In this document: positions 2,462 through 27,121 of the stretch, piece by piece
How the letters are laid out: each line of letters starts with the position of its first letter
How positions within the stretch are numbered: position 1 is the stretch's first letter
From: Candidatus Roizmanbacteria bacterium RIFCSPLOWO2_01_FULL_40_14
Lineage (GTDB): Bacteria; Patescibacteriota; Microgenomatia; GCA-001788215; 2-01-FULL-40-14
Assembly: GCA_001788215.1 (NCBI GenBank)
Contig: MGAO01000011.1
Coordinates: 1 to 33,618 of the forward strand
Direction: 5' to 3'
Length of the DNA: 33,618 nt
Program-made: the position numbers and the translations under genes
The notes under the pieces: generated by a model
What the model saw: only the letters and a program-made list of their open reading frames with translations
Databases searched by the model: none
Told to the model about the DNA's origin: nothing

Positions 2462-4942
2462 TCAGGTCAATTCTACCTCATGTCCCCCGAATTGCCCACG
2501 CAGAGCCGATACGACTTTTCCAGTATACGAAGGATTCTTTTGGGAATCAATACGAAACTGTAATGCATCTTCTATGATTTTAGTTTTTATTTTTAACCTT
2601 TTAGCTTCTTCTACGGTCCACTTCCCTTCTCCCGATTGGGAAACCGATCCGGATATATCTTTCAAATCAGTCCCGTACTGCACATACGCATCTTTCAACC
2701 ATGAAATCAATCGAGATTCAATAACGCTTCCGTGGTTGTATACGTCGACAACGTGCGTCAGATCAAGCTTGAAAGAAGATTTTTTCAAAATTTCAAACCC
2801 CTCGCCGATTGCCTGCATCATGCCGTACTCAATACCGTTATGAATCATTTTGATAAAATGTCCAGCGCCGACTCCGTCGAAAAACCGGTATCCACGAGGA
2901 ACCGATAGATCGGCAAATATCGGTTCAAGATATTCAAATGTTTTGTGGTCGCCGCCTACCATGAGGCACGCGCCAAACCGGGCTCCTTCAGGCCCGCCTG
3001 AGATACCGACGTCAACAAGTTTGATTCCCCGTTTTTTTAATAAAGAATGCCGACGGATCGTATCATGATAATTTGAATTCCCCGCGTCAATGATGATGTC
3101 TCCTTTTTCCAAAATTTCTACTAAGCCATTGTCATTCCCGCGCAGGCGGGAATCCCCTTGAGATCCCCGATCAGGTCGGGGATGACGATTATATGATTTT
3201 CCAAACAATATTCCATCCACTGCATCTCCTGCAGAAACGGACAACAGAACCACCCGCGGCGGTTTTAATTTTTCCTTAAATTCTTTCATATCATAAATCC
3301 CTTCAATTCCTTTCCGGACAAATGATTCAGTCACATTTTTTGATCGATTGTACCCATATACTCGCCAGCCTCGATCATGCAGTTGCAGTGCAATGCCACC
3401 GCCCATTTTTCCCAATCCTACCAGTCCGATTTCTTTCTTTAACATATGCCGGTGAATGCTTGGTTTTTCATCTTCCGTAAGCATCTCAGCAATTTCGTCC
3501 GTGCCGCGTTTATACGCTCGAATCGGTACACCATTCTCCTGCCACGCATTGATAATCGCATCCGTATACTGCCACATCGGCAATACTTCATCGGTTGATA
3601 CGAACAGCGTTTGATCTCCCCGAATAACATCGAGAAGCAGCTTCTCATACTCTTCAACATACTGCCTGCGCTCTTTTGTCGTCCGATACGTAAATGCTAA
3701 CTCTTTCTGCTGAAGTTCTAGGTCCAATCCGGGCTTTTTGGAAAAAAATTTGATCATTATTTTTTCTTCCGGCTCGAGAGAGAAAACGACTTGATTGTTG
3801 TAGTCTTTTCCCGGTTCACAATTCAAACATACCTGCGGATTTCGGAAGGTGATTGTAATATCTTTTTGAGGTTTGGAAAACCCTTTCCCGCTCGATAAGT
3901 AGATGGGCACTCCATCCCAGCGATTCGATGATAAACACGCACGCGTCTTAAAGTATGTTTCAATCTGCGAGTTTGAATCAACGCCCGTGTGAGTACGGTA
4001 TCCTTCATATTGAGCCCGGATGGTCGACCGACGTACTTCGTCCCGTGTCGAAGGATTCAATGTTTGCAATAACTCGGCACGTTTTCTTCTGATTGCATCA
4101 GCGGTCAGTGTGCCGGGATTGTCCATTGTCACCAAGGCCAACATCTGCAGTAAATGGTTTTGTCCGACATCTCTGAAGGCTCCGACACTTTCATAAAACG
4201 ATCCGCGCTTTGACGCATCGTTGTCTTCGAGAAGCCGGATGTCGATGCGCGAGACGAATTTATTATTCCAGGACTCCTCAAGGAAATTATTTGAAAATCG
4301 AAACGCCAAAATATTTTGAAGCATTTCTTTCCCTAAATAGTGATCGATCCGGTAAATCTGTTCTTCTTTAAAAAGATTTGACAATAATTCATCGAGTTCT
4401 TGTGCGGTTTTTAAGTCATTGCCAAATGGTTTTTCAACGAGGACCCGCGTCCACCCCTCATCGGGCGAGCAGGCCCGCCTGCCAGCGCCTGAGCGCAGCG
4501 ATGGCGGGCAGGGACCAGTCAGGTGTGAATTGTGAAGATGGGTCAAAATAGTCTTGTAGTAACTCGGAGGAACCGCCAGATAAAACAGTTTGTTTGAACA
4601 GACATGCCAACGCTTATCGACCAAGCCCATTTCCCTGGCTAACTTGTCATAATCTCCTCGTTGTTCAAACTGTCCCTGATGATAAAAAAATAATTGGCAA
4701 AATGCTTCGAGTTTACGCTTGTGCTCTGGGGTCTCTGCATAATCCTCCGCAAGTTTAAACACATGCTCACGAAACTGTTCATTGGTCAACGGGCGTCTGG
4801 CTACCCCAATGATATGAAACATTTTGGGAAGTTTATCTTTCGCGTATAAATGAAAGAGTGCCGGTGTAATCTTCCGGGCCATGAGATCCCCCGTTGCACC
4901 ATAGACGATAACGACGGTCGGAATGTTGAATTTGTCAGGCAT
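2462..4942 (-). CDS. zwf-gnd: Glucose-6-phosphate dehydrogenase / 6-phosphogluconate dehydrogenase fusion
   Basis: One 826-residue frame carries two enzymes of the oxidative pentose phosphate pathway. Residues 1-495 are Zwf: nucleotide-binding GATGDL at 15-20, RVLVEKPFG at about 166-174 and active-site RIDHYLGK at 198-205. Residues 500-826 are Gnd: GLVGLGKMGGGIA near 506-518, AGNSNYHD at 620-627, GGPEGARFG at 649-657 and FIKMIHNGIEYG at 696-707. There is no stop between the parts; Gnd starts with its own Met (residue 500), so internal initiation is possible. No 6-phosphogluconolactonase is encoded here. Two palindromes add peptides: residues 144-164 in Zwf and 583-605 in Gnd. The transaldolase gene lies just upstream on the same strand. 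Both family calls are firm; whether the product stays fused is unknown. Confidence 0.93.
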   Translation of the reverse strand: MPDKFNIPTVVIVYGATGDLMARKITPALFHLYAKDKLPKMFHIIGVARRPLTNEQFREHVFKLAEDYAETPEHKRKLEAFCQLFFYHQGQFEQRGDYDKLAREMGLVDKRWHVCSNKLFYLAVPPSYYKTILTHLHNSHLTGPCPPSLRSGAGRRACSPDEGWTRVLVEKPFGNDLKTAQELDELLSNLFKEEQIYRIDHYLGKEMLQNILAFRFSNNFLEESWNNKFVSRIDIRLLEDNDASKRGSFYESVGAFRDVGQNHLLQMLALVTMDNPGTLTADAIRRKRAELLQTLNPSTRDEVRRSTIRAQYEGYRTHTGVDSNSQIETYFKTRACLSSNRWDGVPIYLSSGKGFSKPQKDITITFRNPQVCLNCEPGKDYNNQVVFSLEPEEKIMIKFFSKKPGLDLELQQKELAFTYRTTKERRQYVEEYEKLLLDVIRGDQTLFVSTDEVLPMWQYTDAIINAWQENGVPIRAYKRGTDEIAEMLTEDEKPSIHRHMLKKEIGLVGLGKMGGGIALQLHDRGWRVYGYNRSKNVTESFVRKGIEGIYDMKEFKEKLKPPRVVLLSVSAGDAVDGILFGKSYNRHPRPDRGSQGDSRLRGNDNGLVEILEKGDIIIDAGNSNYHDTIRRHSLLKKRGIKLVDVGISGGPEGARFGACLMVGGDHKTFEYLEPIFADLSVPRGYRFFDGVGAGHFIKMIHNGIEYGMMQAIGEGFEILKKSSFKLDLTHVVDVYNHGSVIESRLISWLKDAYVQYGTDLKDISGSVSQSGEGKWTVEEAKRLKIKTKIIEDALQFRIDSQKNPSYTGKVVSALRGQFGGHEVELT
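3131..3186. repeat. Double palindrome inside the Gnd half
   Basis: Two stem units, ATTCCCGC/GCGGGAAT and ATCCCCGA/TCGGGGAT, are bounded by GTCAT and ATGAC, so the whole element is also an inverted repeat. It is translated in frame as NRHPRPDRGSQGDSRLRGND within the coenzyme-binding domain. Confidence 0.88.
4464..4524. repeat. GC-rich imperfect palindrome inside the Zwf half
   Basis: GCCCGCCTGCCAGCGCC is mirrored imperfectly by GCGATGGCGGGCAGGG. The element is in frame and encodes PCPPSLRSGAGRRACSPDEG just before the conserved RVLVEKPFG strand. Confidence 0.75.
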
Positions 4943-4998: not shown

Positions 4999-5976
4999 TT
5001 ATCCAAGCAGCTTGTTCCAGTCATCCGCAAAGCGCTTCAGTCCCACATCGGTCAGTTCGTGGGAAATATCAAACTCGTTCCACGGTTTATGTAAATCTAA
5101 TTCTTGGTAGGCAATTGGCTGCAAGTTTTTTGAATCGTATATATATGAAGAATCAGGAACGTGCATTCCCCTTTTTACCCATTCCTCAAGAATTGCATAG
5201 GGACAGGTGATGATATCTGCCCCGTTTGCTACTGAACCAATAAAGTGGTCAAGATTTCGGATACTTGCTGATAAATTCATCACGTGCCCGTCGCCATTTG
5301 AGTACATCCGGGTAATGCTTTTTATTAAATCCATCCCGTTTTCTCCTCGATCATCCAGACGTCCGATGAAGGGAGAAACAAAGACATTTTTAAATCCGGG
5401 CAACGTTGAATCGGGCTTGACCTGAGTTGAATCGAAGGGCTTGCCCTGAGCAAGCGAAGCGCGCCGAAGGGTTGCTGAATAGACTGCCGCCGCTTGTTGC
5501 TGTTGAAACACTAATGTCATGTTGACCCGTATTTTTTCTGAAACCGCGTTCGATGCAGCTCGTAGTCCTTCTTGAGTCGTCGGAAATTTTATGTGTGCAT
5601 TCGGAATCCATGAAAACATTTCTTTTCCCTGTCTCAACATCTGATCGGCAGTTGTATTTTCATCAGAATATACTTCAATGGAAACTGAACCTTTCGGAAT
5701 CAAAGAAGAAATTTCTTCCACAATGGATTTGTATTCTTGTAATAACTGATCTTCTGTCAATTTTAAGTTTCTTAATACGTCATCCCCGACCCGATCGGGG
5801 ATCTCAGAGATTCCCGCTTTCGCGGGAATGACATTGGTAGACAGGATCTTCTTTGCAACAAGTGACGGGTTCGTCGTCTGTCCGTCCAGGAATCCGAGCA
5901 AATCAAGTGCCTTTCGCGTTTCGTCCGGATCTCCTGAATCAAGAAAGATTTTCGTGGTAAGATTTTGAGGTTTCAT
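4999..5976 (-). CDS. tal: Transaldolase
   Basis: A 325-residue transaldolase of the non-oxidative pentose phosphate pathway. It shows KIFLDSGDPDE near the N-terminus, DGQTTNPSLV at 31-40, the Schiff-base Lys in HIKFPTT, and VFVSPFIGRLDD before the C-terminal third. Two palindromic elements are translated: residues 48-67 (VIPAKAGIS...), and a stretch of about 22 residues (RRASLAQGKPFDSTQVKPDS) between the AAAVYSAT and FVSPFIGR motifs, both at loop positions between conserved blocks. It precedes zwf-gnd on the same strand with a 56-base spacer, so the two probably form an operon. No clear -10 box or Shine-Dalgarno sequence is seen at the start. Confident in the family. Confidence 0.93.
   Translation of the reverse strand: MKPQNLTTKIFLDSGDPDETRKALDLLGFLDGQTTNPSLVAKKILSTNVIPAKAGISEIPDRVGDDVLRNLKLTEDQLLQEYKSIVEEISSLIPKGSVSIEVYSDENTTADQMLRQGKEMFSWIPNAHIKFPTTQEGLRAASNAVSEKIRVNMTLVFQQQQAAAVYSATLRRASLAQGKPFDSTQVKPDSTLPGFKNVFVSPFIGRLDDRGENGMDLIKSITRMYSNGDGHVMNLSASIRNLDHFIGSVANGADIITCPYAILEEWVKRGMHVPDSSYIYDSKNLQPIAYQELDLHKPWNEFDISHELTDVGLKRFADDWNKLLG
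5405..5472. repeat. Palindromic element inside tal (second insertion)
   Basis: Contains CTTGC/GCAAG arms (5440-5454) and GAAGGGC/GCGCCGAAGGG motifs. Translated in frame as an extra loop just before the FVSPFIGR block. Confidence 0.6.
5779..5832. repeat. Double palindrome inside tal (first insertion)
   Basis: ATCCCCGA/TCGGGGAT followed by GATTCCCGC/GCGGGAAT, bounded by GTCAT and ATGAC; the same two-unit layout as 3131-3186. Translated in frame as VIPAKAGISEIPDRVGDD. Confidence 0.88.
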
Positions 5977-8701: not shown

Positions 8702-9634
8702 ATGATACGAAAAAAAGGGGTATTGAGTATAGTCGCTCTGGCATTTTTAAGCGTGATACTCGTTCGAGCCGTTCCTTTGGCTCGCGCTCAATCACCAAGG
8801 CCGGCAAATTCCACCATGATACGCTCAGCTGACCCAGAGCTGGCGAGCGGGAGTGCTTCCCTTGCATCTGAAGCAGCAGAACTGGAAGAATTGCTCAAGG
8901 AAAATATTACTCAACCTGAACAGATTGAGCAAAAAAGCGAAATACTTGAAGTATTTGCCAAGCGTCCGGCAAACAAACCATCACTTACTAACTTTTTTGC
9001 CTATACCGTACAAAGCGCGGTACGCGCCGGCGTCCCGGCAAACACGATTATACTCATTTTACTGTTGCCGTTTCTGGCAACGGCTGCGGTGCTGATCCGC
9101 TATGTCGTCGGCCTTCCCTCGTTGGGCATACTATTCCCCATTGCTCTTTCGATTACGCTTCTTGCCACGGGAATTACTATTGGTGCGGCACTTCTCATCA
9201 CCATTATTCTGGCTACAACGATTGCACAAATGCTTCTCAAGAAAATTCGCATTATGCATATGCCGAAATTGGCATTATCTATTCTTATGGTTTCAATATT
9301 TGTGTTCGCAACGCTCGTTATAGGCGTATCCTATGGACAAATTGCCATCCGTAGCTTGTCCATTTTCCCGGTACTGCTTCTCATACTCTTATCAGAACGC
9401 ATTGTGGCTATTCAGCTCGAAAGGAAACTCGGTGAAACTCTTTTGATCGCGGGAACGAGTATCGGTTTGGGAATTATCGGATTTTACCTTCTTTCCTGGA
9501 AAATGCTTCAAAACTTTATTATCCTCTATCCCGAAGCGATCTTTCTCCTTATTCCGTTTAATATTATCGTTGGACGCTACTTTGGACTGAGAATAACGGA
9601 ATACTTCCGGTTTAAAGATGTGAAGGAACGATAA
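8702..9634 (+). CDS. UUP1-type 7TM membrane protein lacking the transglutaminase-like domain
   Basis: A 310-residue membrane protein. Residues 1-30 form a signal peptide or first helix (VALAFLSVILVRAVPLARAQ). Residues 31-110 are a short extracytoplasmic linker rich in Ala/Glu. Residues about 115-300 form seven hydrophobic segments with the family signature RYVVGLPSLGILFPIAL and a C-terminal RYFGLRITEYFRFK. In better-known members an inactive transglutaminase-like domain of a few hundred residues precedes the helices; here it is missing. The family is found next to ATP-grasp ligase genes, as here: the stop and the next ATG overlap (TAATG at 9632-9636), so the two are translationally coupled. 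The biochemical role is unknown. A leaderless -10 box fixes the start. Confidence 0.82.
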   Translation: MIRKKGVLSIVALAFLSVILVRAVPLARAQSPRPANSTMIRSADPELASGSASLASEAAELEELLKENITQPEQIEQKSEILEVFAKRPANKPSLTNFFAYTVQSAVRAGVPANTIILILLLPFLATAAVLIRYVVGLPSLGILFPIALSITLLATGITIGAALLITIILATTIAQMLLKKIRIMHMPKLALSILMVSIFVFATLVIGVSYGQIAIRSLSIFPVLLLILLSERIVAIQLERKLGETLLIAGTSIGLGIIGFYLLSWKMLQNFIILYPEAIFLLIPFNIIVGRYFGLRITEYFRFKDVKER

Positions 9635-10998
9635 TGGCTGTTTCTCAAAACATTCTCGGTATGAACGCACGAAATTACCTGTATATTAGGAAGTATAATG
9701 TTCGTGATTCAAAGCGCGTGGCCGATGACAAACTGTTAACGAAGCGGCGAATGATCAGAAACGCCATCGCTACGCCGAAGCTTCTGGCTACCTTTCGAAG
9801 CAGAAAAGAGATGAGAGATTTTAATTGGAGTAGTCTGCCGACTGACGGATTTGCTATAAAACCGGCGCGCGGATATGGCGGCGGCGGCATCATAGTATTT
9901 AAGAAATGGGAAGGATCCTCAGGAACTACCGTATCGGGCGAACAGGTTGACATACACTATATCGAAAATCATCTACTGGACATATTGGACGGCGCCTTTT
10001 CGCTTCAGTATCTGCCTGACTACGCGTTTATTGAAGAACGAATCCATCTCCATCCGTTTTATAAAAAAATTTGTTCCGTGGGACTGCCGGACATCCGCAT
10101 CATCGTTTTAAATGCCATACCGATTATGGCCATGCTCAGATTACCGACTGAAGAATCACACGGTACCGCAAACCTCATGCAGGGAGCTATAGCGCTCGGC
10201 ATTGATATGCGCACCGGCATAACGAATTATGCGTATAAAAAACACGGCACAACACCGCGGTTTATCCCCGGAACAAAAACAAAACTCAGAGGACTCAAAA
10301 TACCGAAATGGAACGAACTTCTCCTCCTTGCTGCAAAAGCACAGCAAGCGAGTAAATTGGGATATGCCGGCATTGATTTGGTGCATGACGGCGAAAAAGG
10401 ACCGCTCGTTTTAGAAATTAACGCACGTCCCGGACTTTCTATTCAAAGCGCCAACCGCACCTCTTTGAGAACTCGTCTGGAGCGCGTTGAAAACATGCAT
10501 CATATAACGCCTGAGCGGGGCGTTGAAATGGCGAAATCACTCTTTGTCTCGGCCTTTTCTGAAAAAGTAAAAACAAATCCGAAAACTGTGGGCGTTATAG
10601 AACAAGTTGTTCTGGAAGGTGAACGGCTCATCAAAGCAGTCGATGCAAAAGTCGACACGGGGGCATTTCGCACCTCAATAGACAAACAGCTGGTTTCTGA
10701 ACTCGGATTCCCCAAGTCAGATAAAGAAGTACAGGTACAATCGGCAAGCGGTGTTCAAACCCGAGAGACTATCAATGCTACGTTCCATTTGAGAGGCGTG
10801 AAAATCAAATCTGTCGCTTCCGTGACCGACCGCAGTCATTTAAAATATCCCGTTATTATTGGACGAAGAGACTTAAAAGGTTTTCTCGTAGATCCCACGA
10901 TAAATGCTCCTGACGAGTCTTCTGATTCTATGGAATTAGATCTCCAGTCAGAAGAGACGAATTCCGAACTGAAGAAGTCTCGCACAATAAACCCATAA
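9634..10998 (+). CDS. ATP-grasp (RimK-like) amino-acid ligase fused to a retropepsin-like (RimB-type) protease
   Basis: A 454-residue fusion. Residues 1 to about 300 are an ATP-grasp domain of the 'alpha-L-glutamate ligase-like' group: NILGMNARNYLYIRKYN, KPARGYGGGGI (glycine loop), GLPDIRIIV, and the metal-binding LVLEINARPGLSIQSAN. Residues about 315-425 are a retropepsin-like domain of the RimB/'ATP-dependent zinc protease' family: DAKVDTGAFRTSID with the catalytic Asp in DTGA, and a second half ending YPVIIGRRDLKGFLVDP. Such ligases and proteases are often adjacent genes; here they are one chain, joining an amino-acid-adding and an amide-cleaving module. AAGGA before the ATG and the TAATG overlap indicate coupling to the 7TM gene. 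Substrate unknown; Glu addition is inferred only from family relatives. Confidence 0.87.
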   Translation: MAVSQNILGMNARNYLYIRKYNVRDSKRVADDKLLTKRRMIRNAIATPKLLATFRSRKEMRDFNWSSLPTDGFAIKPARGYGGGGIIVFKKWEGSSGTTVSGEQVDIHYIENHLLDILDGAFSLQYLPDYAFIEERIHLHPFYKKICSVGLPDIRIIVLNAIPIMAMLRLPTEESHGTANLMQGAIALGIDMRTGITNYAYKKHGTTPRFIPGTKTKLRGLKIPKWNELLLLAAKAQQASKLGYAGIDLVHDGEKGPLVLEINARPGLSIQSANRTSLRTRLERVENMHHITPERGVEMAKSLFVSAFSEKVKTNPKTVGVIEQVVLEGERLIKAVDAKVDTGAFRTSIDKQLVSELGFPKSDKEVQVQSASGVQTRETINATFHLRGVKIKSVASVTDRSHLKYPVIIGRRDLKGFLVDPTINAPDESSDSMELDLQSEETNSELKKSRTINP

Positions 10999-11041
10999 AA
11001 AGTAGCAGTCAGTCAACAAAGAGAAAGTGAACGTATAGTTT

Positions 11042-13027
11042 TTAGATAGCTTGTTTTAATTGCTGAATTTTCGCTTTTACTTTTTGTATTTCTTTCGAAT
11101 TTTCTGATGGATCTGCAGCTCTCACATAACGAGTATATGCATCTATTGCTTCAGCTACTTTGTTTTCATGTACCAATGCGTTTCCTAAATTATTATAAAA
11201 GTAATCAATATTTGGATTGTTTTTTATCGCTTCACGATAACATTGTATTGCTTCATCGAATTTTCCTTGAGTCGATAAAACATATCCAAGAGCGTTATAT
11301 GTATTATCTGTGTCTGGATCTATGGATATGGCTTTGCGATATGCCGCTAGCGCATCATTATCATGCTCGAGAGTTAACAATGAGTTACCAAAATTATTAA
11401 AAATATCAGGATCGCGTGGATTAAATGAAGCAGCCAATCTATTTGCTTCATTTGCTTCTTTGATTCGTCCGAGATCAGATAATGTTAATGCAGTATTTTT
11501 TAGTAATTGAATCTTTTGACCCATTTCCGATTCAAAGAGAGTAAGTAATACCTTGTGATTTCGGGGAATCCACGGAAATCTAAGATCAAAAGGGCCACGA
11601 ACGACCTCAAACATTAATCCTTCAGTTGTAGGGTGGTTACTGAAATGAATAATGTCTTTGACAGTTAGGGGATTACCATCCATATTTGTACCTTGGATCA
11701 TTGGGTCGGTTACGTACCTATTATTTCCTCTGAATAACATATCCCTCCAAAGCACTTGTTCATCAGAGGTGAGGACGAATAATAGCGAATGTCGTGGAAG
11801 ATTACCCACAAGGTACACAATCCCTGCTTCTTTCAATAATGATCCCCCCAGTATCGACGCACCGACGCAATTAATATTTTGAGTTGCCACAATCTCTGAC
11901 GGGTTCTGTGAGTTTTCTTCTCGTGGAAATCGACTGACAGCATCTTGAATTTTATCTGCTATTTCCCGTTCCTTAGCACTGATTCTTTCTATATCTCCAG
12001 TTTGACGAAGAGCTTCAAGTTCTGCTTTCAGTTCAGGCAGTCTTAAGACTTCAGTTAGCTTTCTTTGCTCAAGATGAAGATCGATTCCGGCTTTTTCAAA
12101 AAGTGTATTCACCGCGTATTTCCATCCCGCTTCTCGCGTATCGGTTACCACTTTTTCAAGCCCTCGAAGAAAAACAGCAGAGACGAGCTCTCTTTTTGGC
12201 GTTTCAATAGTATTTTTCAGTGACTGTTCGACTTTGCGAAGGAATCCGCTGTGAATGGGAGCATTTATAAGCCACGGCTTGACGGGAGGTTTTCGGCTCT
12301 GTAATTCACCTGTCTGTGGATTCTCACTCAATAGAAACGCTTTTTCTGATACTCGGAAGAACTGTGCAAGCGTATCACATCTTTCCTGTTCGACAAGTTC
12401 TTCCATACTCTTCGGATCTATGGCCGCCTTTCGTTCGACTGAGGCTTTGCGAGCTTTATAGAGACGATCGCCTGCTAAGAAGCGGTCGATCTCATCCGTC
12501 TCTGAAGGAGTAAGCTCTTTTTTTGAAATTTCATCTACTGATGCAAACTGTTCTGGAGATTTTCTCTCTATGAGTGACTGTCCGTATCCATAGAATTCTT
12601 CGGCGAGTCCATGGGCAATTTCCCGTCCGTTAGTTATAAAGTTGAGCCGTTTTGCAATATATATACCTGCGTTTTGAAACTCTTTTCCGAGTATCAGGAT
12701 TTTTTCCTTCGCAGTGTCTTTCTTCTCCGGCTTTTGTGCGTAGGTGTCGTGATCCACTGTTTCCATGATCCCGACCATCTCCCACAAAGCAAGATCATGT
12801 GGAATATAGAGCGTTTGCTTCCCATCTATATTTCTCTCAAGGATCCCTTTCACACCCCGTTCTTCCCATGTTTTACGATCGACATATTGAGGCTCGATTG
12901 AGTCATTTATCTCACACCATTTTGAGAAGAAAAACTGGACGGCAGGATTTTCAAAGGGTTTCTGTTCAATGACAGGACGTATTTCAAACATCGGCTGGTT
13001 TGATGACTGTTCATCCACCTGTTCCAT
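11042..13027 (-). CDS. TPR protein with a transglutaminase-like Cys-His-Asp region
   Basis: A 661-residue, apparently cytosolic protein. Residues 1-370 are charged and helical without a family I recognise. Residues 380-435 carry NINCVGASILGG, then PRHSLLFVLTSDEQVLWRD: Cys387, His413 and Asp429 fit the transglutaminase-like order (C...H-x-W/L-x-x-V...W-x-x-D). Residues about 505-637 hold three to four tetratricopeptide repeats (NNFGNSLLTLEHDNDALAAY and YNALGYVLSTQGKFDEAIQC). The combination suggests a thiol peptidase or amidase with a protein-binding tail. It lies between the ligase/protease fusion and a DUF1704 gene, transcribed towards the former. A TAAAAT box 6 bases before the ATG supports the start. 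The TPR call is firm; the catalytic call rests on spacing of three residues. Confidence 0.72.
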   Translation of the reverse strand: MEQVDEQSSNQPMFEIRPVIEQKPFENPAVQFFFSKWCEINDSIEPQYVDRKTWEERGVKGILERNIDGKQTLYIPHDLALWEMVGIMETVDHDTYAQKPEKKDTAKEKILILGKEFQNAGIYIAKRLNFITNGREIAHGLAEEFYGYGQSLIERKSPEQFASVDEISKKELTPSETDEIDRFLAGDRLYKARKASVERKAAIDPKSMEELVEQERCDTLAQFFRVSEKAFLLSENPQTGELQSRKPPVKPWLINAPIHSGFLRKVEQSLKNTIETPKRELVSAVFLRGLEKVVTDTREAGWKYAVNTLFEKAGIDLHLEQRKLTEVLRLPELKAELEALRQTGDIERISAKEREIADKIQDAVSRFPREENSQNPSEIVATQNINCVGASILGGSLLKEAGIVYLVGNLPRHSLLFVLTSDEQVLWRDMLFRGNNRYVTDPMIQGTNMDGNPLTVKDIIHFSNHPTTEGLMFEVVRGPFDLRFPWIPRNHKVLLTLFESEMGQKIQLLKNTALTLSDLGRIKEANEANRLAASFNPRDPDIFNNFGNSLLTLEHDNDALAAYRKAISIDPDTDNTYNALGYVLSTQGKFDEAIQCYREAIKNNPNIDYFYNNLGNALVHENKVAEAIDAYTRYVRAADPSENSKEIQKVKAKIQQLKQAI

Positions 13028-13033
13028 ACGCTC

Positions 13034-13039
13034 ATTTTA
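13034..13039 (-). promoter_or_regulatory. -10 box TAAAAT, leaderless spacing
   Basis: TAAAAT on the minus strand, 6 bases before the ATG at 13027. Confidence 0.45.
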
Positions 13040-13239
13040 TCACAACAGCTAAGGTTGTTATCTAGAATAAAAATCGGGAAATTGGCACCTTTTGTTTAAG
13101 TGTGGTACACTGATATCCTTTCAGTACCTTCGTATCCTATAATGTTTTTACTACGTACGGTGCTTAAAGTCATGGACTTTAGGTCTTTTAAAAAGCTTCG
13201 TGTTTCAGCACGAACGTAGTCTACATTTCTCGGGTCGGG
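13040..13239 (+). other. Divergent intergenic region with hairpins and a TATAAT box
   Basis: This about 210-base spacer between divergent genes holds a hairpin GGTAC/GTACC (13104-13128), a TATAAT at 13138-13143, a hairpin AAAGTC/GACTTT (13166-13180) and a hairpin TTCGTG/CACGAA (13197-13214). A transcript from the TATAAT would have a structured leader of about 100 bases before the gene at 13252, in addition to the leaderless box at 13240. No riboswitch class or small RNA recognised. Confidence 0.35.
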
Positions 13240-13245
13240 TATATT
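13240..13245 (+). promoter_or_regulatory. -10 box TATATT, leaderless spacing
   Basis: TATATT ends 6 bases before the ATG at 13252. This selects ATG 13252 over the in-frame TTG at 13249. Confidence 0.5.
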
Positions 13246-13251
13246 CTTTTG

Positions 13252-14352
13252 ATGAAGCAAAGTATTACAAAATCTAAAAAAACCGATTTATTACATTTTG
13301 CAGAAGATCTCACGAGGCTCTTGAGTCACGTACAAATAGATCCGTCTATTCTCACGCCGATAAATTATCGTTCGGAACTGCGAAAATTCTTCAAATCCAA
13401 TGTATACAATCCACAGTTTATTTACCCTGATACAACAAAACAATCTGTCAATACGATTCTTGCAGGATTATGGAGACGACTTATTAACCTTTCTTTACCC
13501 TCTGATATAGAATACTATATTGAATCTCTCATTTATCATACTGCTCTCCTCCAACGGGCAAGACTTCACATTGGCACTCCTCTTTTCTCCCGCTTTGCAG
13601 AAAAACTTTATGCCTTAAATGCACTCACTGCTCAAAAGTATAATGATTGCCTTCCGACGGTGACCTTTGCTGATACCGAAGGCGCTCGCATCTATAATGC
13701 TTATGAAATACAGGAATATGCAGAGCGCTATATTGCCTCGCAATCTCACTTGCATTCTATTGGCGCCTGTATCGACCACCGAACGAATTTCAGTGTTCGA
13801 GCTGGAATCAGCAATTTGTATATCGGCTCACGAGTCAGACGAAATGAACAGAATGTCGTGCGGCTTATGGTACACGAAGTCGAATCACATCTTCTGCAAA
13901 AAAGAAATTCAAGGGCGGGTGGGCCACTTTATTTATTACGAACACAACCAACCCGTGAATTGTACGCTGAAGGTATGGCGGTTTATAACGAGGTAACAAC
14001 AGGCACCATTACTGAAAATGCCTACAAGATGTACTTTTATCGATTGCAGGCCGTGGCTATGATGGATAAAAGTTTTCGTGAAATATATTCCTATCTTTCA
14101 TCATATATGTCAAAAAATAAGGCATTTATTACGGCCTTTCGAGTCAAACGGGGTATATCTGATACGAGTAAACCGGGAGGATATCCAAAAGATGCGCTGT
14201 ATGTAATGGGGTACAAAAAAGTTTCCGATTATCTCCTTTCAGGCGGTAATATAGAGTTTTTGTATCGTACACAAGTTCCCCAATTGGGCAAATTGCTCAG
14301 TAAATATGATCTCCTTTCTTCTGTCCCCTGCCAAATGCCCCAGTTTTTATAA
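13252..14352 (+). CDS. DUF1704 (MATCAP-like) metallocarboxypeptidase candidate, short form
   Basis: A 366-residue protein with the two-part zinc motif of the DUF1704 family: HEVESH (residues about 208-213) and YAEGMAVYNE (about 238-247), the counterpart of the family's EEGLA/QEGLA motif. Further downstream FRVKRGISD...GGYPKDALYVMGY matches the conserved FRG...FTKD.xY block also seen in the gene at 15805. Eukaryotic relatives (MATCAP/TMCP) remove C-terminal tyrosine or glutamate from tubulin. Bacterial members are of unknown function. No signal peptide, so cytosolic. The two DUF1704 proteins here share only these motifs. A leaderless -10 box decides the ATG start. It is followed after 17 bases by the membrane metalloprotease gene on the same strand. 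Confidence 0.72.
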   Translation: MKQSITKSKKTDLLHFAEDLTRLLSHVQIDPSILTPINYRSELRKFFKSNVYNPQFIYPDTTKQSVNTILAGLWRRLINLSLPSDIEYYIESLIYHTALLQRARLHIGTPLFSRFAEKLYALNALTAQKYNDCLPTVTFADTEGARIYNAYEIQEYAERYIASQSHLHSIGACIDHRTNFSVRAGISNLYIGSRVRRNEQNVVRLMVHEVESHLLQKRNSRAGGPLYLLRTQPTRELYAEGMAVYNEVTTGTITENAYKMYFYRLQAVAMMDKSFREIYSYLSSYMSKNKAFITAFRVKRGISDTSKPGGYPKDALYVMGYKKVSDYLLSGGNIEFLYRTQVPQLGKLLSKYDLLSSVPCQMPQFL

Positions 14353-14357
14353 TTTGT

Positions 14358-14363
14358 TATGCT
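14358..14363 (+). promoter_or_regulatory. -10 box TATGCT, leaderless spacing
   Basis: TATGCT, 6 bases before the ATG at 14370, lying in the 17-base spacer after the DUF1704 gene. Confidence 0.4.
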
Positions 14364-14369
14364 TATTGC

Positions 14370-15773
14370 ATGACACCCATACCGCCTCCGCTTCCCGTTC
14401 CGAAACCACCCCGACATCATACATGGCTATTAGTGGTGATTGCCGTAATCGTCGGTCTTGTCCTATTATCACTTGCTGCGGTAGGAATATTCGTTTATTT
14501 TGTCTTAATGACTTCTCAGACTTTTCTTGAGGAACCGGTGATTAATTCTCAATCAGAATCATCCACTAATGATATAACTCACGAAATTGCTCTTCAGCTG
14601 TCGGAAGCTCAAGATAATACGTTTTCTCTTCATAATAATTTTTCCTATCTGTTTCAACTGGAACCATCACAAGAAGAATTCTTGGGTGTTGTGGTGCCAC
14701 CCGATGATGCTAAGCGTGTAACCGCAGTTCGCGGCATTCCTTTTTATGAGACAGAATGTCGACCGTTTCAGGAAAATGAAATCACACAGCTTGCTCTTTT
14801 CCTCAATACGCTCCCGAAAGAAGTTCTGGAACTGCGACCGAAAGGAATTGTTTCCGCATGCCTTGATCGACTTAATCTTTCAATTGATCCGTTGACGAAC
14901 GCATTGACCAGCGGCCCGTATATTTATCTGGGAGATGAATTTTTTTCAGGAACTCTTTTTTCAGGCGAGAATTCTGCAAATGAAAAACTCACCATTTTTA
15001 CCCATGAATATGCCCATGTCCTGCAATATTATTATGTTCATCACTACTGGCTGCAGCGGAAAAGAACCAGTGCCTATGATTACGATACGTCCTCAACCGT
15101 TATTTATGACTTTGCGCGCACCGTTGGCTGGCAGCAGTATCCAACTGGTCAAGAACCTTCATTTTTTGATGGTGATTACACATGGCAACTAGCTAAAACA
15201 TCTGATGCACAAATGACCACTGACTATGGAAAAGAGAGCGGCCCGACGGAAGATTTTGCCGAGAGCTTCGGACTGGTAGCAGCCGGACAGCCACAAACCA
15301 TATCAGAGGCACGAAAGAATTATATAGTACATTTCTTGAATGCCGAGGAATCCACGTTTACGCAAGGGGTTGTACCGCAATACCCTACCAGCATCCGCGT
15401 CAGTTTTGACTACGAGTCGTTCCTGTCCGATAGGGTCAACCAACTGCCCCTCCAAGGAAAAACAGTAACTGATACTGAACAATGGGGCGTTGATAAAATC
15501 AATTCTTTTGAAACGATTGTTCAGTATTATCAGGATGAATTGACTCGTCGTTCTTTTGAACCTGTTCAACAAATAACGATTCAGCCGGGAGCATATGATG
15601 ACCAGTTTGCATCGGGAGTTTATGTTGCCGAAGGGAAAACATATGTCGTACTCGTTATTGGTACGATTACCACACAGGTAACGGAAGTTCCGACTGGAGA
15701 AAATTCATATGTGGTTCAAAGAAGCACGTTGACACCGGAGCTTTTTAACGTCACTGTGTTGACGTATGAGTAA
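14370..15773 (+). CDS. Membrane-anchored HExxH metalloprotease-like protein
   Basis: A 467-residue protein. A Pro-rich cytoplasmic start (PIPPPLPVPKPP) leads into one transmembrane helix at about residues 18-46; the rest should be outside the cell. HEYAH at 212-216 (FTHEYAHVLQYYY) is a zinc-metalloprotease motif, and EDFAESF at 294-300 supplies the third, Glu-type ligand in gluzincin-like spacing. The C-terminal part (about 330-467) is a separate beta-rich region with alternating Val/Thr. I do not recognise a named family. It may act as the surface protease arm of the surrounding peptide-modification genes, but this is inferred from position. A leaderless box suggests its own promoter. Confidence 0.72.
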   Translation: MTPIPPPLPVPKPPRHHTWLLVVIAVIVGLVLLSLAAVGIFVYFVLMTSQTFLEEPVINSQSESSTNDITHEIALQLSEAQDNTFSLHNNFSYLFQLEPSQEEFLGVVVPPDDAKRVTAVRGIPFYETECRPFQENEITQLALFLNTLPKEVLELRPKGIVSACLDRLNLSIDPLTNALTSGPYIYLGDEFFSGTLFSGENSANEKLTIFTHEYAHVLQYYYVHHYWLQRKRTSAYDYDTSSTVIYDFARTVGWQQYPTGQEPSFFDGDYTWQLAKTSDAQMTTDYGKESGPTEDFAESFGLVAAGQPQTISEARKNYIVHFLNAEESTFTQGVVPQYPTSIRVSFDYESFLSDRVNQLPLQGKTVTDTEQWGVDKINSFETIVQYYQDELTRRSFEPVQQITIQPGAYDDQFASGVYVAEGKTYVVLVIGTITTQVTEVPTGENSYVVQRSTLTPELFNVTVLTYE

Positions 15774-15804
15774 ATAGGATAATTATCACTAATAATGAAG
15801 TGGG

Positions 15805-17163
15805 TTAATCGGACTCAATATCTTCATCAGAAATTCCCAACTGATCAAGAATCCAAAGATGTCGATTGTTTGAAGGATCATATTTTCCAACATTTAACCG
15901 AAACATTTCATCGGGATTCTCACGCACTACATTCCATGTCGCGATATTTCCTTCACGATATGCAATATCTTTCGTAAAACACGCTCCTGCCACACAATTT
16001 GTACCTCGAAAGGTTCTTACCGTACGGTTCCATGCACTCGTCTGAGCTGTAGAAAGTGCTGATTGATAATCTTTACCACTCAACAACTCTTGTAATAGAA
16101 ATTGTTTTTCAAGAATTTCATAGACTTTTCTAAAATCTCGTTCCATACCATCTAGTCCATATGCAAGGCTGATTGCTAAATGCGCTTCCAATCCTGCAAA
16201 ATCTTCCATTTTATCACCCAGAGATTGCTCCCTCATAGTAGCAACACCTTCATCTCCTCTTTCATATCGATCTAAACCAAGTCCGAGCAATTTAAGTTTG
16301 CTCCTTTCGCCATTAATTCTTCGCGCTACGTGAGTACCGATTTCATGTACTATGAGTATGCGCAATTTTGCAAATGGTAATCTTCGAGCTTCGGGTACTT
16401 TAACCGTTTGGTTTTCTTGATCAACGCTAATAGCAGATTTACTACTCGTGTCTACAACAACGTTCCACCCTTCTCCATGAAGAGTTGAAAGCGCTTGATC
16501 GAAAACTGCTTTAATTGCTTCTGCATCAAATTCTTCCTGGCTTATCGGTAAAGAGACTAAATCACCTGCTGTTTTAAGAGTTGCATCTCGAACCATATCT
16601 ATAGTTTCTTGATTAGGTAATTCGCCAATAGAATATCCAGTGAGATTCGCCGGAATAAGAGCGCTTAATTCTTCAGCTGTTTTCCGAACGTGTTCGTCAT
16701 CCGAGCAAGAAGCTTCTTCACATACCTGTTTGAGTGCTTGTACCGTATAGGCAAAAATGTCAGAAGACGGTTTGCCATATACAAATTCTGAATATTTCCT
16801 GAACCGTCTTGTGTCGCCGGTATGAGCAGCACGAAGCAATCGGACTTCGGCTATTTTTTCGTTCAGTCTCCATCTATATGCTTGTTTAACAACGGAATTT
16901 TGTTCTTGAGCTAATACATCTTCTTTCAGTAACAACAACTCCTTTTCTTGAGTATCGAGCCGGATTGCATCAATCTTTGGATAATCTAAAAGTGGATTTT
17001 CAATTTCTCCTTTAAGAAATTTATCTTTTTGTTCTTCTCGGTATCTCTTATCTCCATCTAAATATTCATACGCCTGAAATGATCCGTATCGGGCAAACCT
17101 GCCGTACCAGGAAGAGTCAACTTGTTCTGGTTGTAGTTGTATAGGAGCGTCAATATTTCCCAT
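15805..17163 (-). CDS. DUF1704 (MATCAP-like) metallocarboxypeptidase candidate, long form
   Basis: A 452-residue protein whose second half is a standard DUF1704 domain: GEGWNVVVDTSSKSAISV, a KVPEARRLPF strand, HEIGTHVARRING at 273-285 (zinc ligands His273 and His277, Glu274), DEGVATMRE at 304-312 (third ligand Glu305) and FRGTNCVAGACFTKDIAYREG at about 385-405. The first 180 residues are helical and charged and look unrelated to the short paralogue at 13252. Predicted to be a cytosolic zinc carboxypeptidase; relatives in animals trim tyrosine or glutamate from tubulin tails. Transcribed convergently with the metalloprotease gene and divergently from the PIG-L gene. A TATACT box 6 bases upstream fixes the start. 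Confidence 0.8.
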   Translation of the reverse strand: MGNIDAPIQLQPEQVDSSWYGRFARYGSFQAYEYLDGDKRYREEQKDKFLKGEIENPLLDYPKIDAIRLDTQEKELLLLKEDVLAQEQNSVVKQAYRWRLNEKIAEVRLLRAAHTGDTRRFRKYSEFVYGKPSSDIFAYTVQALKQVCEEASCSDDEHVRKTAEELSALIPANLTGYSIGELPNQETIDMVRDATLKTAGDLVSLPISQEEFDAEAIKAVFDQALSTLHGEGWNVVVDTSSKSAISVDQENQTVKVPEARRLPFAKLRILIVHEIGTHVARRINGERSKLKLLGLGLDRYERGDEGVATMREQSLGDKMEDFAGLEAHLAISLAYGLDGMERDFRKVYEILEKQFLLQELLSGKDYQSALSTAQTSAWNRTVRTFRGTNCVAGACFTKDIAYREGNIATWNVVRENPDEMFRLNVGKYDPSNNRHLWILDQLGISDEDIESD

Positions 17164-17169
17164 TTATAT

Positions 17170-17175
17170 AGTATA
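17170..17175 (-). promoter_or_regulatory. -10 box TATACT, leaderless spacing
   Basis: TATACT on the minus strand, 6 bases before the ATG at 17163. Confidence 0.55.
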
Positions 17176-17210
17176 CGCTACCAGATCAAAAATACCCCAA
17201 TTCTATATGA

Positions 17211-17216
17211 TATACT
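17211..17216 (+). promoter_or_regulatory. Extended -10 box TGATATACT
   Basis: TGnTATACT, 9 bases before the ATG at 17226; a 2-3 base leader at most. Confidence 0.5.
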
Positions 17217-17225
17217 CAAAATCTT

Positions 17226-17900
17226 ATGAAAACAAAGAAGGTGCTTCTCGTTTTTTCCCATCCCGACGATGAAAGCTTTGGTCCCGGAGGAACCATCGCC
17301 CTCTGGGCAAAACGGGGGCACGAACTGCATCTGGTCTGTGCGACCAAGGGCGAAATCGGCAACAACCACACAAATGACAAAACAGAACTCATTCGTGAAA
17401 AAGAACTCAAAAAAGCGGCAGAGATTTTGGGTATAAAAAAAGTGAACTTTCTCGGATACAAAGACGGACATATTAGCAATTGCCACATACCACAGCTGGC
17501 GCAGAAAATCAGTGCCAAAATCAATCAGTTCAAACCTCATGTTATTATGACCTTTAATTTAAATGGTGTTTCCGGACATCTCGATCATGTCGCTGTTGCG
17601 AATGCCACCACGAGTGCGTTTGATAAAACGGGTTTTGCCGAAAAGCTCTATTACTATTCATTGCCTAAAGCGTACACGGACACGATTGAAGATTACTTTA
17701 TACACTTTCCGGACGGTTCAGAAGACCATGAGTTTGATGAAATCGTGAACATATCAGACGTGTGGGATACGAAAATCGCGGCTATGATGGCACATGAAAG
17801 CCAAAAGGAAGATATTGATCGTATTCTGGCAGGGTACAAAAAATTCCCGCAGAAAAAAGACCACTTCATGGTACGTATAAGAAAGGCAAAGAATTCATGA
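17226..17900 (+). CDS. PIG-L (LmbE-like) family deacetylase
   Basis: A 224-residue member of the PIG-L/LmbE zinc-dependent N-deacetylase family, usually acting on N-acetylglucosamine-containing lipids, thiols or antibiotics. The metal-binding HPDDESFGPGG is at 12-22; TKGEIGNN follows, and GHLDHVAVANA (about 116-126) supplies the third ligand. Length fits the family. No signal peptide, so cytosolic or peripheral. It converges with the ATP-grasp gene; the two stop codons share the palindrome TCATGA (17895-17900). The sugar substrate is unknown; a cell-envelope glycan or glycolipid is likely given the GT4 and LCP genes in the window. Confidence 0.9.
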   Translation: MKTKKVLLVFSHPDDESFGPGGTIALWAKRGHELHLVCATKGEIGNNHTNDKTELIREKELKKAAEILGIKKVNFLGYKDGHISNCHIPQLAQKISAKINQFKPHVIMTFNLNGVSGHLDHVAVANATTSAFDKTGFAEKLYYYSLPKAYTDTIEDYFIHFPDGSEDHEFDEIVNISDVWDTKIAAMMAHESQKEDIDRILAGYKKFPQKKDHFMVRIRKAKNS

Positions 17901-18719
17901 CGTTACTATTTCATCTACCACGAGCTGTGCTGTTTTTTTCGGCATGATATCTTGGGCACGATTAAACTGCGGACTCGAATTTACTTCAAGAAAATAGTAT
18001 CTGCCGTCTTTTCCTTGCAGAAAATCAACACCGGCAAAATCCAGTCCGATTTCTTTGGTTATTTTCAAGGCATATTCTTTCAGAATCGACGGAATGTGTT
18101 TTATCGGCTCCCCACCTTTAACATACAATCGATGGTCTGAATGCATGAACATTCCCCGCTCAAAACCATAGAGTATTTTTCCCTTGAGCACATTGATTCT
18201 GATATCCCGCTTGGCATCGATATATTTCTGCAGAATATGATGATGAAGAGTAGTTTTTTTGAGTTGATCTTCAAGTTCTTTTGCTGAAGAAACAAGGTAG
18301 TTGCTTCGGGAACGTGAGCTCACGCGCTTTTTTAACACAAGAGGAAATGGCAGTAAATCCCATAGCACCCGCTTTTTATTGGAAAAATAGTATATCGGCG
18401 GAGTTTGAATACCGAGCCGGTTGCACAAAAGTCCCTGGTAAAACTTATCGTGAAAATAGGGAGAACACGTCAGATATGCTTTCAGATCAAATATAAATTG
18501 CGTTCCGTACCGTTCGGCCAAATTCCGTGCAATCACTGCGTAATTACGGGTAAAATAGGGAGTATTCCAAGGACTTCTTAATAAGAGTCTGTCTTCAGGA
18601 TTGATAGACAACTTACGCTTTCGAACAGAGAAGTTGTCGGCAAGAACGGTGACTTCCTTATAATAATACCAGTCATATGCAATTCTTCTCCTCACCAGTT
18701 CCTTCTCGATCAGCTGCAT
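17895..18719 (-). CDS. RimK-like ATP-grasp ligase
   Basis: A 274-residue ATP-grasp protein of the RimK/glutathione-synthetase-like group. LPFPLVLKKRVSSRSRSNYLV (about 123-143) holds the ATP-binding lysines, LQKYIDAKRDIRINVLKGK the domain middle, and DFAGVDFLQGKDGRYYFLEV followed by NSSPQF the Mg-binding C-terminal part. Such enzymes join an amino acid or peptide to a carboxylate using ATP. The ATG at 18719 may not be the true start: the frame stays open upstream and reads HLYIFANEADYS, a plausible first beta strand, but there is no ATG, GTG or TTG. An ATT at 18756-18758 lies 5 bases after a TATTAT box. Second ligase of the island; distinct from the fused one at 9634. Confidence 0.82.
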   Translation of the reverse strand: MQLIEKELVRRRIAYDWYYYKEVTVLADNFSVRKRKLSINPEDRLLLRSPWNTPYFTRNYAVIARNLAERYGTQFIFDLKAYLTCSPYFHDKFYQGLLCNRLGIQTPPIYYFSNKKRVLWDLLPFPLVLKKRVSSRSRSNYLVSSAKELEDQLKKTTLHHHILQKYIDAKRDIRINVLKGKILYGFERGMFMHSDHRLYVKGGEPIKHIPSILKEYALKITKEIGLDFAGVDFLQGKDGRYYFLEVNSSPQFNRAQDIMPKKTAQLVVDEIVTS

Positions 18720-26710: not shown

Positions 26711-27121
26711 TTATAACATGGGATGACTGCTCAAGAGTATTTTTCTTTCACGCTGTTTGAATGTAACGTCAAAACGATCAAACACATCAGTCCTGCCCAG
26801 CAGCGGCGGCACATCTTCAATTAAAGACCAAGAAATACGGGCCTGAAATATTTCTGGTCCAATTTTTATGGTACTTTTATCATAAATAACGGGTACGCTT
26901 CCACGAATTCCGCCAATCTGCACTACTTTCGACTCATCCATATGGAACCCAATCAACCTTCCTAAGGATAAAGGTATCATCGTTATGTCAGCACCAGAAT
27001 CAATATAGGGATGAAATTCAATCCAGTCATTGTTTTTGGTTTTCAAATAGACGTCGGCAACTGGTCTTGCAATACTTTGTCCATTACCAAGAGGTTCTTG
27101 TTTGTACTTAAAGACGATCAT
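26711..27121 (-). CDS. Retropepsin-like aspartic protease (stand-alone)
   Basis: A 136-residue single-domain aspartic-protease-like protein. YIDSGADITMIPLSLGRLIG (about 41-60) carries the D-S-G-A-D signature of retropepsins, followed by VVQIGGIRGSVPVIYDKSTI and a second half with PPLLGRTDVFDRFDVTF, the usual flap/dimer elements. Such proteins act as homodimers in the cytosol. It overlaps by ATGA with the DUF5678 gene upstream, so both are made together. The fused retropepsin at 9634 is different in sequence. Substrate unknown. Confidence 0.75.
   Translation of the reverse strand: MIVFKYKQEPLGNGQSIARPVADVYLKTKNNDWIEFHPYIDSGADITMIPLSLGRLIGFHMDESKVVQIGGIRGSVPVIYDKSTIKIGPEIFQARISWSLIEDVPPLLGRTDVFDRFDVTFKQRERKILLSSHPML

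Follow-up and report, generated by a model that had tools for sequence, protein, structure and literature searches.

In Pseudomonas, the rloABC genes code for the retropepsin RloA, the seven-transmembrane (7TM) protein RloB, which carries an inactive transglutaminase, and the ATP-grasp enzyme RloC (PMC12239564). RloA cleaves polyGlu, and loss of rloB or rloC rescues RloA protease mutants; RloB has been reported as 96% proteobacterial, the inactive transglutaminase forming its ectodomain in Proteobacteria (PMC12239564). Glu tails are removed by another retropepsin, RimB, which also stimulates RimK (PMC11957791), and the TMCPs, to which MATCAP belongs, strip C-terminal Tyr and Glu (PMC10499314). 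The present study concerns positions 8702 to 18719 of a 33,618-nucleotide stretch, hereafter the window, from Candidatus Roizmanbacteria bacterium RIFCSPLOWO2_01_FULL_40_14 (contig MGAO01000011.1), a member of the class Microgenomatia of the Patescibacteria, in which a 7TM protein, a ligase-retropepsin fusion, a RimK-type ligase and two proteins of the former DUF1704 family, here named MATCAP1 and MATCAP2, are encoded. To our knowledge, no role has been established for the DUF1704 proteins of bacteria, and MATCAP/TMCP proteins have not been placed in a prokaryotic functional context. We consider it probable that the locus represents a cytosol-facing, Rlo-like writer/eraser system of Patescibacteria, in which MATCAP would replace the retropepsin and the tail of the 7TM protein is the candidate acceptor.

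The core of the locus consists of two overlapping genes on the plus strand. The first (8702..9634) codes for an RloB-like 7TM protein of 310 residues (PF14402, 7TM_transglut; Pfam, 2.2e-20), and its stop codon overlaps by 1 bp, at 9634, the start codon of the second (9634..10998). The product of the latter combines an RloC/RimK-like ATP-grasp domain (residues ~5-292; ATPgrasp_ST, PF14397, 1e-64) with a retropepsin domain (~316-425; PF05618, 2e-7, and PF13650), whose DTGA motif is intact at 341-344. The ligase shares 38% identity over 302 residues with Legionella RloC, and the 7TM part 28% with Legionella RloB. The corresponding NCBIfam models are matched below their cut-offs, namely RloB (1e-13, 51 bits vs 900) for the 7TM protein, and TIGR02291 (1e-77, 260.8 bits vs 314.2) and RloA3 (7e-9, 35.6 bits vs 210) for the ligase-retropepsin protein. 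Its AlphaFold model (pLDDT 90) holds the ATP-grasp and retropepsin domains together, and ArgX/RimK are the best matches in Foldseek (7e-11), with Ddl enzymes also among the matches. The carboxylate to which ArgX and RimK attach amino acids is that of a C-terminal Glu. The second ATP-grasp ligase of the window (17895..18719, minus strand) is of the RimK type (PF08443, Pfam 6.5e-15); its best matches are the RimK genes of these operons, among the fetched loci only, a set biased to them. The two ligases reach neither the RimK family alpha-L-glutamate ligase model TIGR00768 (44.6 and 63.5 bits vs a cut-off of 143.4) nor the tubulin tyrosine ligase family PF03133 (14.0 and 18.8 bits vs 20.1).

As in rloABC, an RloB-type 7TM gene is thus directly followed by an RloC-type ATP-grasp gene, with an RloA-type retropepsin in addition. 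However, RloA is a separate, secreted protein with a signal peptide, whereas the retropepsin of the window is cytosolic and fused to the C-terminus of the ligase; MATCAP and RimK genes are added in Patescibacteria; and no inactive transglutaminase is part of the 7TM protein. With the RimB/RimK pair and the RimBK hybrid, the locus shares a RimK-fold ligase paired or fused with a DTG retropepsin, which in those systems trims Glu tails. In RimBK, however, RimB is N-terminal, the window ligase is of the ATPgrasp_ST type and has a membrane partner, and in its relatives the retropepsin is dead beside a short or fused MATCAP.

According to hydropathy, the 7TM protein of the window starts with an N-terminal signal or transmembrane (TM) segment, followed by an extracytoplasmic linker of ~75 residues and seven TM helices; neither Pfam nor NCBIfam gave a transglutaminase match. 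Ectodomains differ between lineages, with this short linker in the window and a PKD domain in L329, L330 and L341, whose long RloB-like 7TM proteins carry extracytoplasmic PKD in place of the inactive transglutaminase. In the short-MATCAP clade (L094-L113), common genes upstream of the 7TM gene code for a secreted protein of 620-690 residues with a transglutaminase core (PF01841, L095), a UvrC-like protein and Phage_holin_4_2; the secreted transglutaminase may be a detached counterpart of the RloB ectodomain. In L130 (G294), the 7TM part and the ligase-retropepsin apparently form one open frame of 706 residues, and, within family f28, L146 (6934-8392) and further loci carry several tandem genes for membrane proteins of ~110 residues that look pilin-like, divergent from the 7TM gene.

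MATCAP1 (13249..14352, plus strand, with ATG 13252 as the probable true start) and MATCAP2 (15805..17163, minus strand) both belong to PF08014 (Pfam 1.4e-23 and 2.2e-29; 83.9 and 103 bits vs a gathering threshold of 27). The sequence-only reading of this DNA had described two DUF1704 proteins with HExxxH and EG motifs, and the alignment bears it out, with HEVESH/AEG in MATCAP1 and HEIGTH/DEG in MATCAP2, which represents a long subtype. The zinc-site residues of MATCAP1 (H209, E210, H214 and E241) are invariant among 28 aligned sequences. MATCAP1 has no TM or signal segment, and hydropathy indicates no clear one in either ligase or either MATCAP. For the AlphaFold model of MATCAP1 (pLDDT 94.7), human MATCAP (7z5g) comes first in Foldseek (E 9e-9, probability 1.0, TM-score 0.53-0.58), and M32 carboxypeptidases come next; for MATCAP2, phmmer against PDB chains returned no match. 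The PF08014 family, the HExxxH and EG zinc motif and the 7z5g fold are shared with MATCAP/TMCP (KIAA0895L, KIAA0895; PMC10499314). In contrast to these, the window proteins are bacterial, MATCAP1 is only 16-19% identical to 7z5g, and the family has a ligase as linked or fused partner. Neither window protein reaches the model for the flavohemoglobin expression-modulating QEGLA protein (TIGR02421; 95.8 and 81.6 bits vs 338.65). On alpha- and betaproteobacterial plasmids, but not in two gammaproteobacteria, a DUF1704 gene lies between those for N-formylglutamate amidohydrolase (FGase) and glutathione synthetase. The alphaproteobacterial DUF1704 (QEGLA) operon likewise places DUF1704 beside an ATP-grasp ligase, and an FGase follows MATCAP in L330; it has no 7TM protein or retropepsin, however, and its ligase is of the glutathione synthetase type.

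The association extends well beyond the window. PF14402 is present in 124 of the 329 genomes of the class, where its gene is nearly always followed directly by an ATPgrasp_ST gene, a frame of ~430-500 residues with the retropepsin attached. Next come usually one to three RimK ligases (e.g. L132-L136 and L139) or a MATCAP (L093-L113). To cover the phylum, an even set of 380 Patescibacteria genomes was sampled and strong ligase matches were scored. The ligase was found in 116 of them, MATCAP in 86 and both in 69, against ~26 expected (Fisher p ~2e-28). MATCAP and ligase form a single open frame in 35 genomes and lie within 10 kb in 28 more. The fused proteins, of ~795 residues, comprise ATP-grasp, a retropepsin-sized middle and MATCAP, and 26 of the 27 fused loci checked have the 7TM gene immediately upstream. 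In the sister genome (L093/L226, same family as the window genome), the MATCAP1 orthologue directly follows the ligase, starting 8 bp past it, and 20 more genomes of the class show such adjacency. In the window, 2,250 bp separate these two genes, owing to an intervening TPR gene on the opposite strand; this gene is missing there in the sister genome, and is probably, judging from this comparison, an insertion outside the module.

Other arrangements include 7TM-ligase-MATCAP-RimK (L329, L341), 7TM-ligase-RimK-MATCAP (L331, L333) and 7TM-ligase-MATCAP-FGase-RimK (L330), and in Kaiserbacteria (L231) MATCAP lies upstream of the 7TM gene. Long MATCAPs of the HEIGTH subtype are sometimes within the 7TM-ligase-RimK operon of other lineages, sometimes elsewhere. 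Linked long MATCAPs occur in L231, L236, L251, L253, L285 and L296; among 19 rows of the tree set, 9 are linked to the ligase and 10 are not. In Moranbacteria (L285, L296 and relatives), the long MATCAPs come after RimK. In L251, L253 and kindred loci of the Moranbacteria type, yebC/ruvC-like genes and PBP1A (Transgly and Transpeptidase) flank the operon, and a ruvA-like gene follows. The 117-residue apparent MATCAP of L159/L227 is regarded as spurious. The co-occurrence beyond this genome on which the sequence-only reading staked its proposal is therefore found, as adjacency in the class and as fusion in the phylum, and the island that it drew is to be trimmed: the conserved core is the 7TM protein with the ligase-retropepsin, and MATCAP is a genuine recurring partner. 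Our literature search, which left aside the 2009 amidoligase survey of Iyer et al., possibly describing part of this neighbourhood, found no paper naming both DUF1704 and ATP-grasp.

The presence of MATCAP goes together with the state of the retropepsin. In the class locus set, chosen via the 7TM family and independently of MATCAP, a degenerate motif (xTxR for DTGA) is found wherever a short MATCAP is adjacent (20 of 20 loci), and all other loci carry D[TS]GA; no degenerate retropepsin without MATCAP occurs among the class loci. The degenerate motif is mostly NTGR, but also NTSR, NTQR, DTKR or HTGR, and residue 344 is Arg in 20/20 members of the short-MATCAP clade vs Ala in all intact copies. 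The fused proteins are degenerate too (DTGK, NPLL, DSGE, NTAR and others). Among 197 non-redundant loci, each of the 41 with a degenerate retropepsin has a linked or fused MATCAP (41/41), compared with 15 of the 156 intact ones. The ligase residues K76, D153, R169, N180, D248, E261 and N263 are invariant in degenerate loci and nearly so in intact ones. Of the 41 degenerate copies, 38 no longer have the conserved G373, yet the degenerate group still holds ~100 of the 110 positions of the retropepsin, as well as its C-terminal G-R-x-D-L segment. Thus, the retropepsin domain stays and the protease does not, since active-site residues are lost and the rest of the domain is kept. That the presence of MATCAP always kills the retropepsin is ruled out by the 15 loci keeping both. 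The sequence-only reading had cast the ligases as writers and both DUF1704 and the retropepsin as erasers; these putative roles gain genomic support from a retropepsin active site that is lost only with MATCAP.

A further difference resides in the C-terminus of the 7TM protein. In the window it reads RITEYFRFKDVKER, without a terminal Glu, and is predicted to be cytosolic on account of the signal-type N-terminal segment, the topology and the basic end. Tails are basic in intact-retropepsin loci (e.g. GLRLLEYYRFRKLIKK), and so is that of Legionella RloB. At least two Glu among the last five residues are found in 33/36 degenerate-retropepsin loci vs 4/154 intact ones (non-redundant loci; background 5%). 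Tails of the short-MATCAP clade are RFRSIIEEEE-like or NSQEEE, and those of fused-MATCAP loci end in Glu in all 14 that were readable (RHIEE, RHVEEE, KHLQEE). No strong pattern of acidic tails was seen on the ligase, RimK or MATCAP, the 7TM protein alone showing one. The longest Glu run seen belongs to L337 (SEEEEEEEREEE), where the retropepsin motif is DTGE and a MATCAP lies close by.

From the operon and fusion structure, the retained and lost catalytic residues and the Glu tails, we infer the following scheme. The 7TM protein would be translated together with the RimK-like ligase, which would spend ATP on extending a C-terminal carboxylate with amino acids (by analogy, most likely glutamate), and a peptidase on the same chain or from a neighbouring gene would trim the added residues. 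Two unrelated peptidases may fill this eraser role, namely MATCAP, a zinc carboxypeptidase, and the retropepsin domain. Beside an adjacent short MATCAP, or in a fusion with a MATCAP, the retropepsin would be dead and probably kept as a scaffold, activator or oligo-Glu reader, a retention for which the stimulation of RimK by RimB, apart from its protease role, offers a reason. The candidate acceptor is the cytosolic 7TM C-terminus, with its EE, EEE or EEEE in dead-retropepsin lineages. Judging from its motifs, the window looks like an intermediate with two intact erasers (DTGA retropepsin and MATCAP1) and no EE tail, and two apparently active erasers are to be expected at a stage of redundancy. 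The Pseudomonas rescue of RloA protease loss by loss of rloB or rloC is also expected if RloBC make what RloA removes. In its most specific form, which we put forward tentatively and as doubtful, the scheme is a membrane-receptor tail code, with a writer acting on the Glu-ended 7TM tail, MATCAP, often fused to the writer, as the eraser, and the dead retropepsin (NTGR in the adjacent-MATCAP clade) turned into an oligo-Glu reader. An ATP-grasp-fold writer, a C-terminal carboxypeptidase eraser and, in MATCAP lineages, an acidic tail are also features of the tubulin code (TTL/TTLL with MATCAP, VASH and CCP), but the window ligases fall below the TTL family cut-off, and no tubulin or known target is present.

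The open reading frames and proteins listed by the sequence-only reading all lie at the coordinates it gave, as checked with open reading frames, Pfam and NCBIfam, but not all of them belong to the unit. The TPR protein (11042..13027, minus strand), between ligase and MATCAP1, does carry TPR repeats, the only family detected by Pfam; the transglutaminase-like half ascribed to it has no Pfam match, and its N-terminal 471 residues have no family and no homologue in 93 other relatives. The HEYAH protein (14370..15773, plus strand) is membrane-anchored, with one N-terminal TM segment (residues 14-51), and has no recognised Pfam family and no homologue in those 93 relatives. Since homologues are lacking there, both lie outside the conserved unit, and the TPR component and the HEYAH surface arm, once counted as module parts, are rejected. 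A gene for a PIG-L/BshB-type deacetylase (17226..17900; Pfam), absent from the sequence-only reading, sits between those of MATCAP2 and RimK, and no such linkage was seen elsewhere. At 26711-27121, the window also codes for a 136-residue protein with DSGAD and a later LGRTDV, which resembles a stand-alone retropepsin and has no Pfam or NCBIfam match. A single type of repeat (e.g. HPRPDRGSQGDSRLRGNDN, VIPAKAGISEIPDRVGDD and SSPRRRGSVDSRLLGND) is inserted in frame within several ordinary genes of the window (2462-4942, 4999-5976, 29070-30503 and 2-472), in the manner of palindromic repeats that enter coding sequence.

Several observations weigh against a MATCAP that replaces the retropepsin and a 7TM tail that serves as acceptor. 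Fifteen loci, including the window, hold both DTGA and MATCAP. On the ATP-grasp tree, degeneration arose independently ~3-4 times, once within the class, and with so few origins phylogenetic sign tests are underpowered and cannot reach significance. Outside the class, most degenerate loci were picked via MATCAP, and the few unconditioned loci read there (L345, L347 and L348) are all DTGA. In L126 and L208, the 7TM protein ends in EEE despite an intact retropepsin and no linked MATCAP, and the basic tails of the window and of nearly all intact loci fall outside the acceptor idea. L126 and L208 are related (family f45), with intact DTGA and tails EDEEE or DDEEE, and an unlinked MATCAP is present in one of their genomes.

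Three other explanations were considered. The ligase might not modify a protein but release a free polymer or peptide (poly-alpha-glutamate, for example, or an osmolyte or envelope peptide), which the 7TM protein would export or sense, the erasers setting its length and the Glu tails being docking or regulatory elements. Such a product is possible but less probable, and speaking for it, RimK and RimB yield free poly-alpha-L-glutamate (PMC11957791), rlo mutants are affected under hypo-osmotic conditions and in morphology (PMC12239564), tandem RimK genes suggest multi-step ligation, and PBP1A is near the operon in Moranbacteria. However, MATCAP relatives of known activity work on protein tails, the Glu tail covaries with the eraser type, which a pure exporter would not need, and no exporter family was recognised. 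It is unlikely that MATCAP and the retropepsin act instead on cell-wall peptides or precursors, with the ATP-grasp protein as a Ddl-like peptidoglycan enzyme and the 7TM protein as a wall sensor. Although Ddl (D-Ala-D-Ala ligase) is among the Foldseek matches, the best fold and sequence matches are ArgX/RimK; the PKD or transglutaminase-like ectodomains and the cell-shape and ampicillin phenotypes of Pseudomonas rlo mutants would suit a wall function, but the ligase and peptidase are without signal sequences, and polyGlu is what RloA cleaves. Finally, accidental clustering of functionally unrelated hydrolases and ligases in a small genome is very improbable for the 10-kb stretch as a whole. 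The restriction of TPR and HEYAH to this genome, the mixed strands of MATCAP2, PIG-L and RimK, and the 16 of 76 tree MATCAPs unlinked to a ligase speak for it, but MATCAP-ligase fusion and adjacency recur over many families and rule it out for the 7TM protein, ligase-retropepsin and MATCAP. For TPR, HEYAH and PIG-L, chance placement is likely.

We therefore retain the Rlo-like writer/eraser system as the preferred reading. The idea of writers and erasers is not wholly new here, because the retropepsin-ligase core is related to the known rlo and rim systems (PMC12239564, PMC11957791). The Rlo core is, however, extended to a common Patescibacterial system (PF14402 in 124/329 class genomes), and a MATCAP beside or fused to a RimK/RloC-type ligase, with the site of a second, unrelated peptidase lost at the same loci, predicts a role for these proteins and a short candidate substrate, the 7TM tail. 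Bacteria may thus possess a code of amino-acid tails that they write and erase, perhaps on the tail of the 7TM protein itself. If true, this tail code would give prokaryotes an equivalent of the tubulin-tail system in which a single polypeptide carries the writer, the reader and the eraser.

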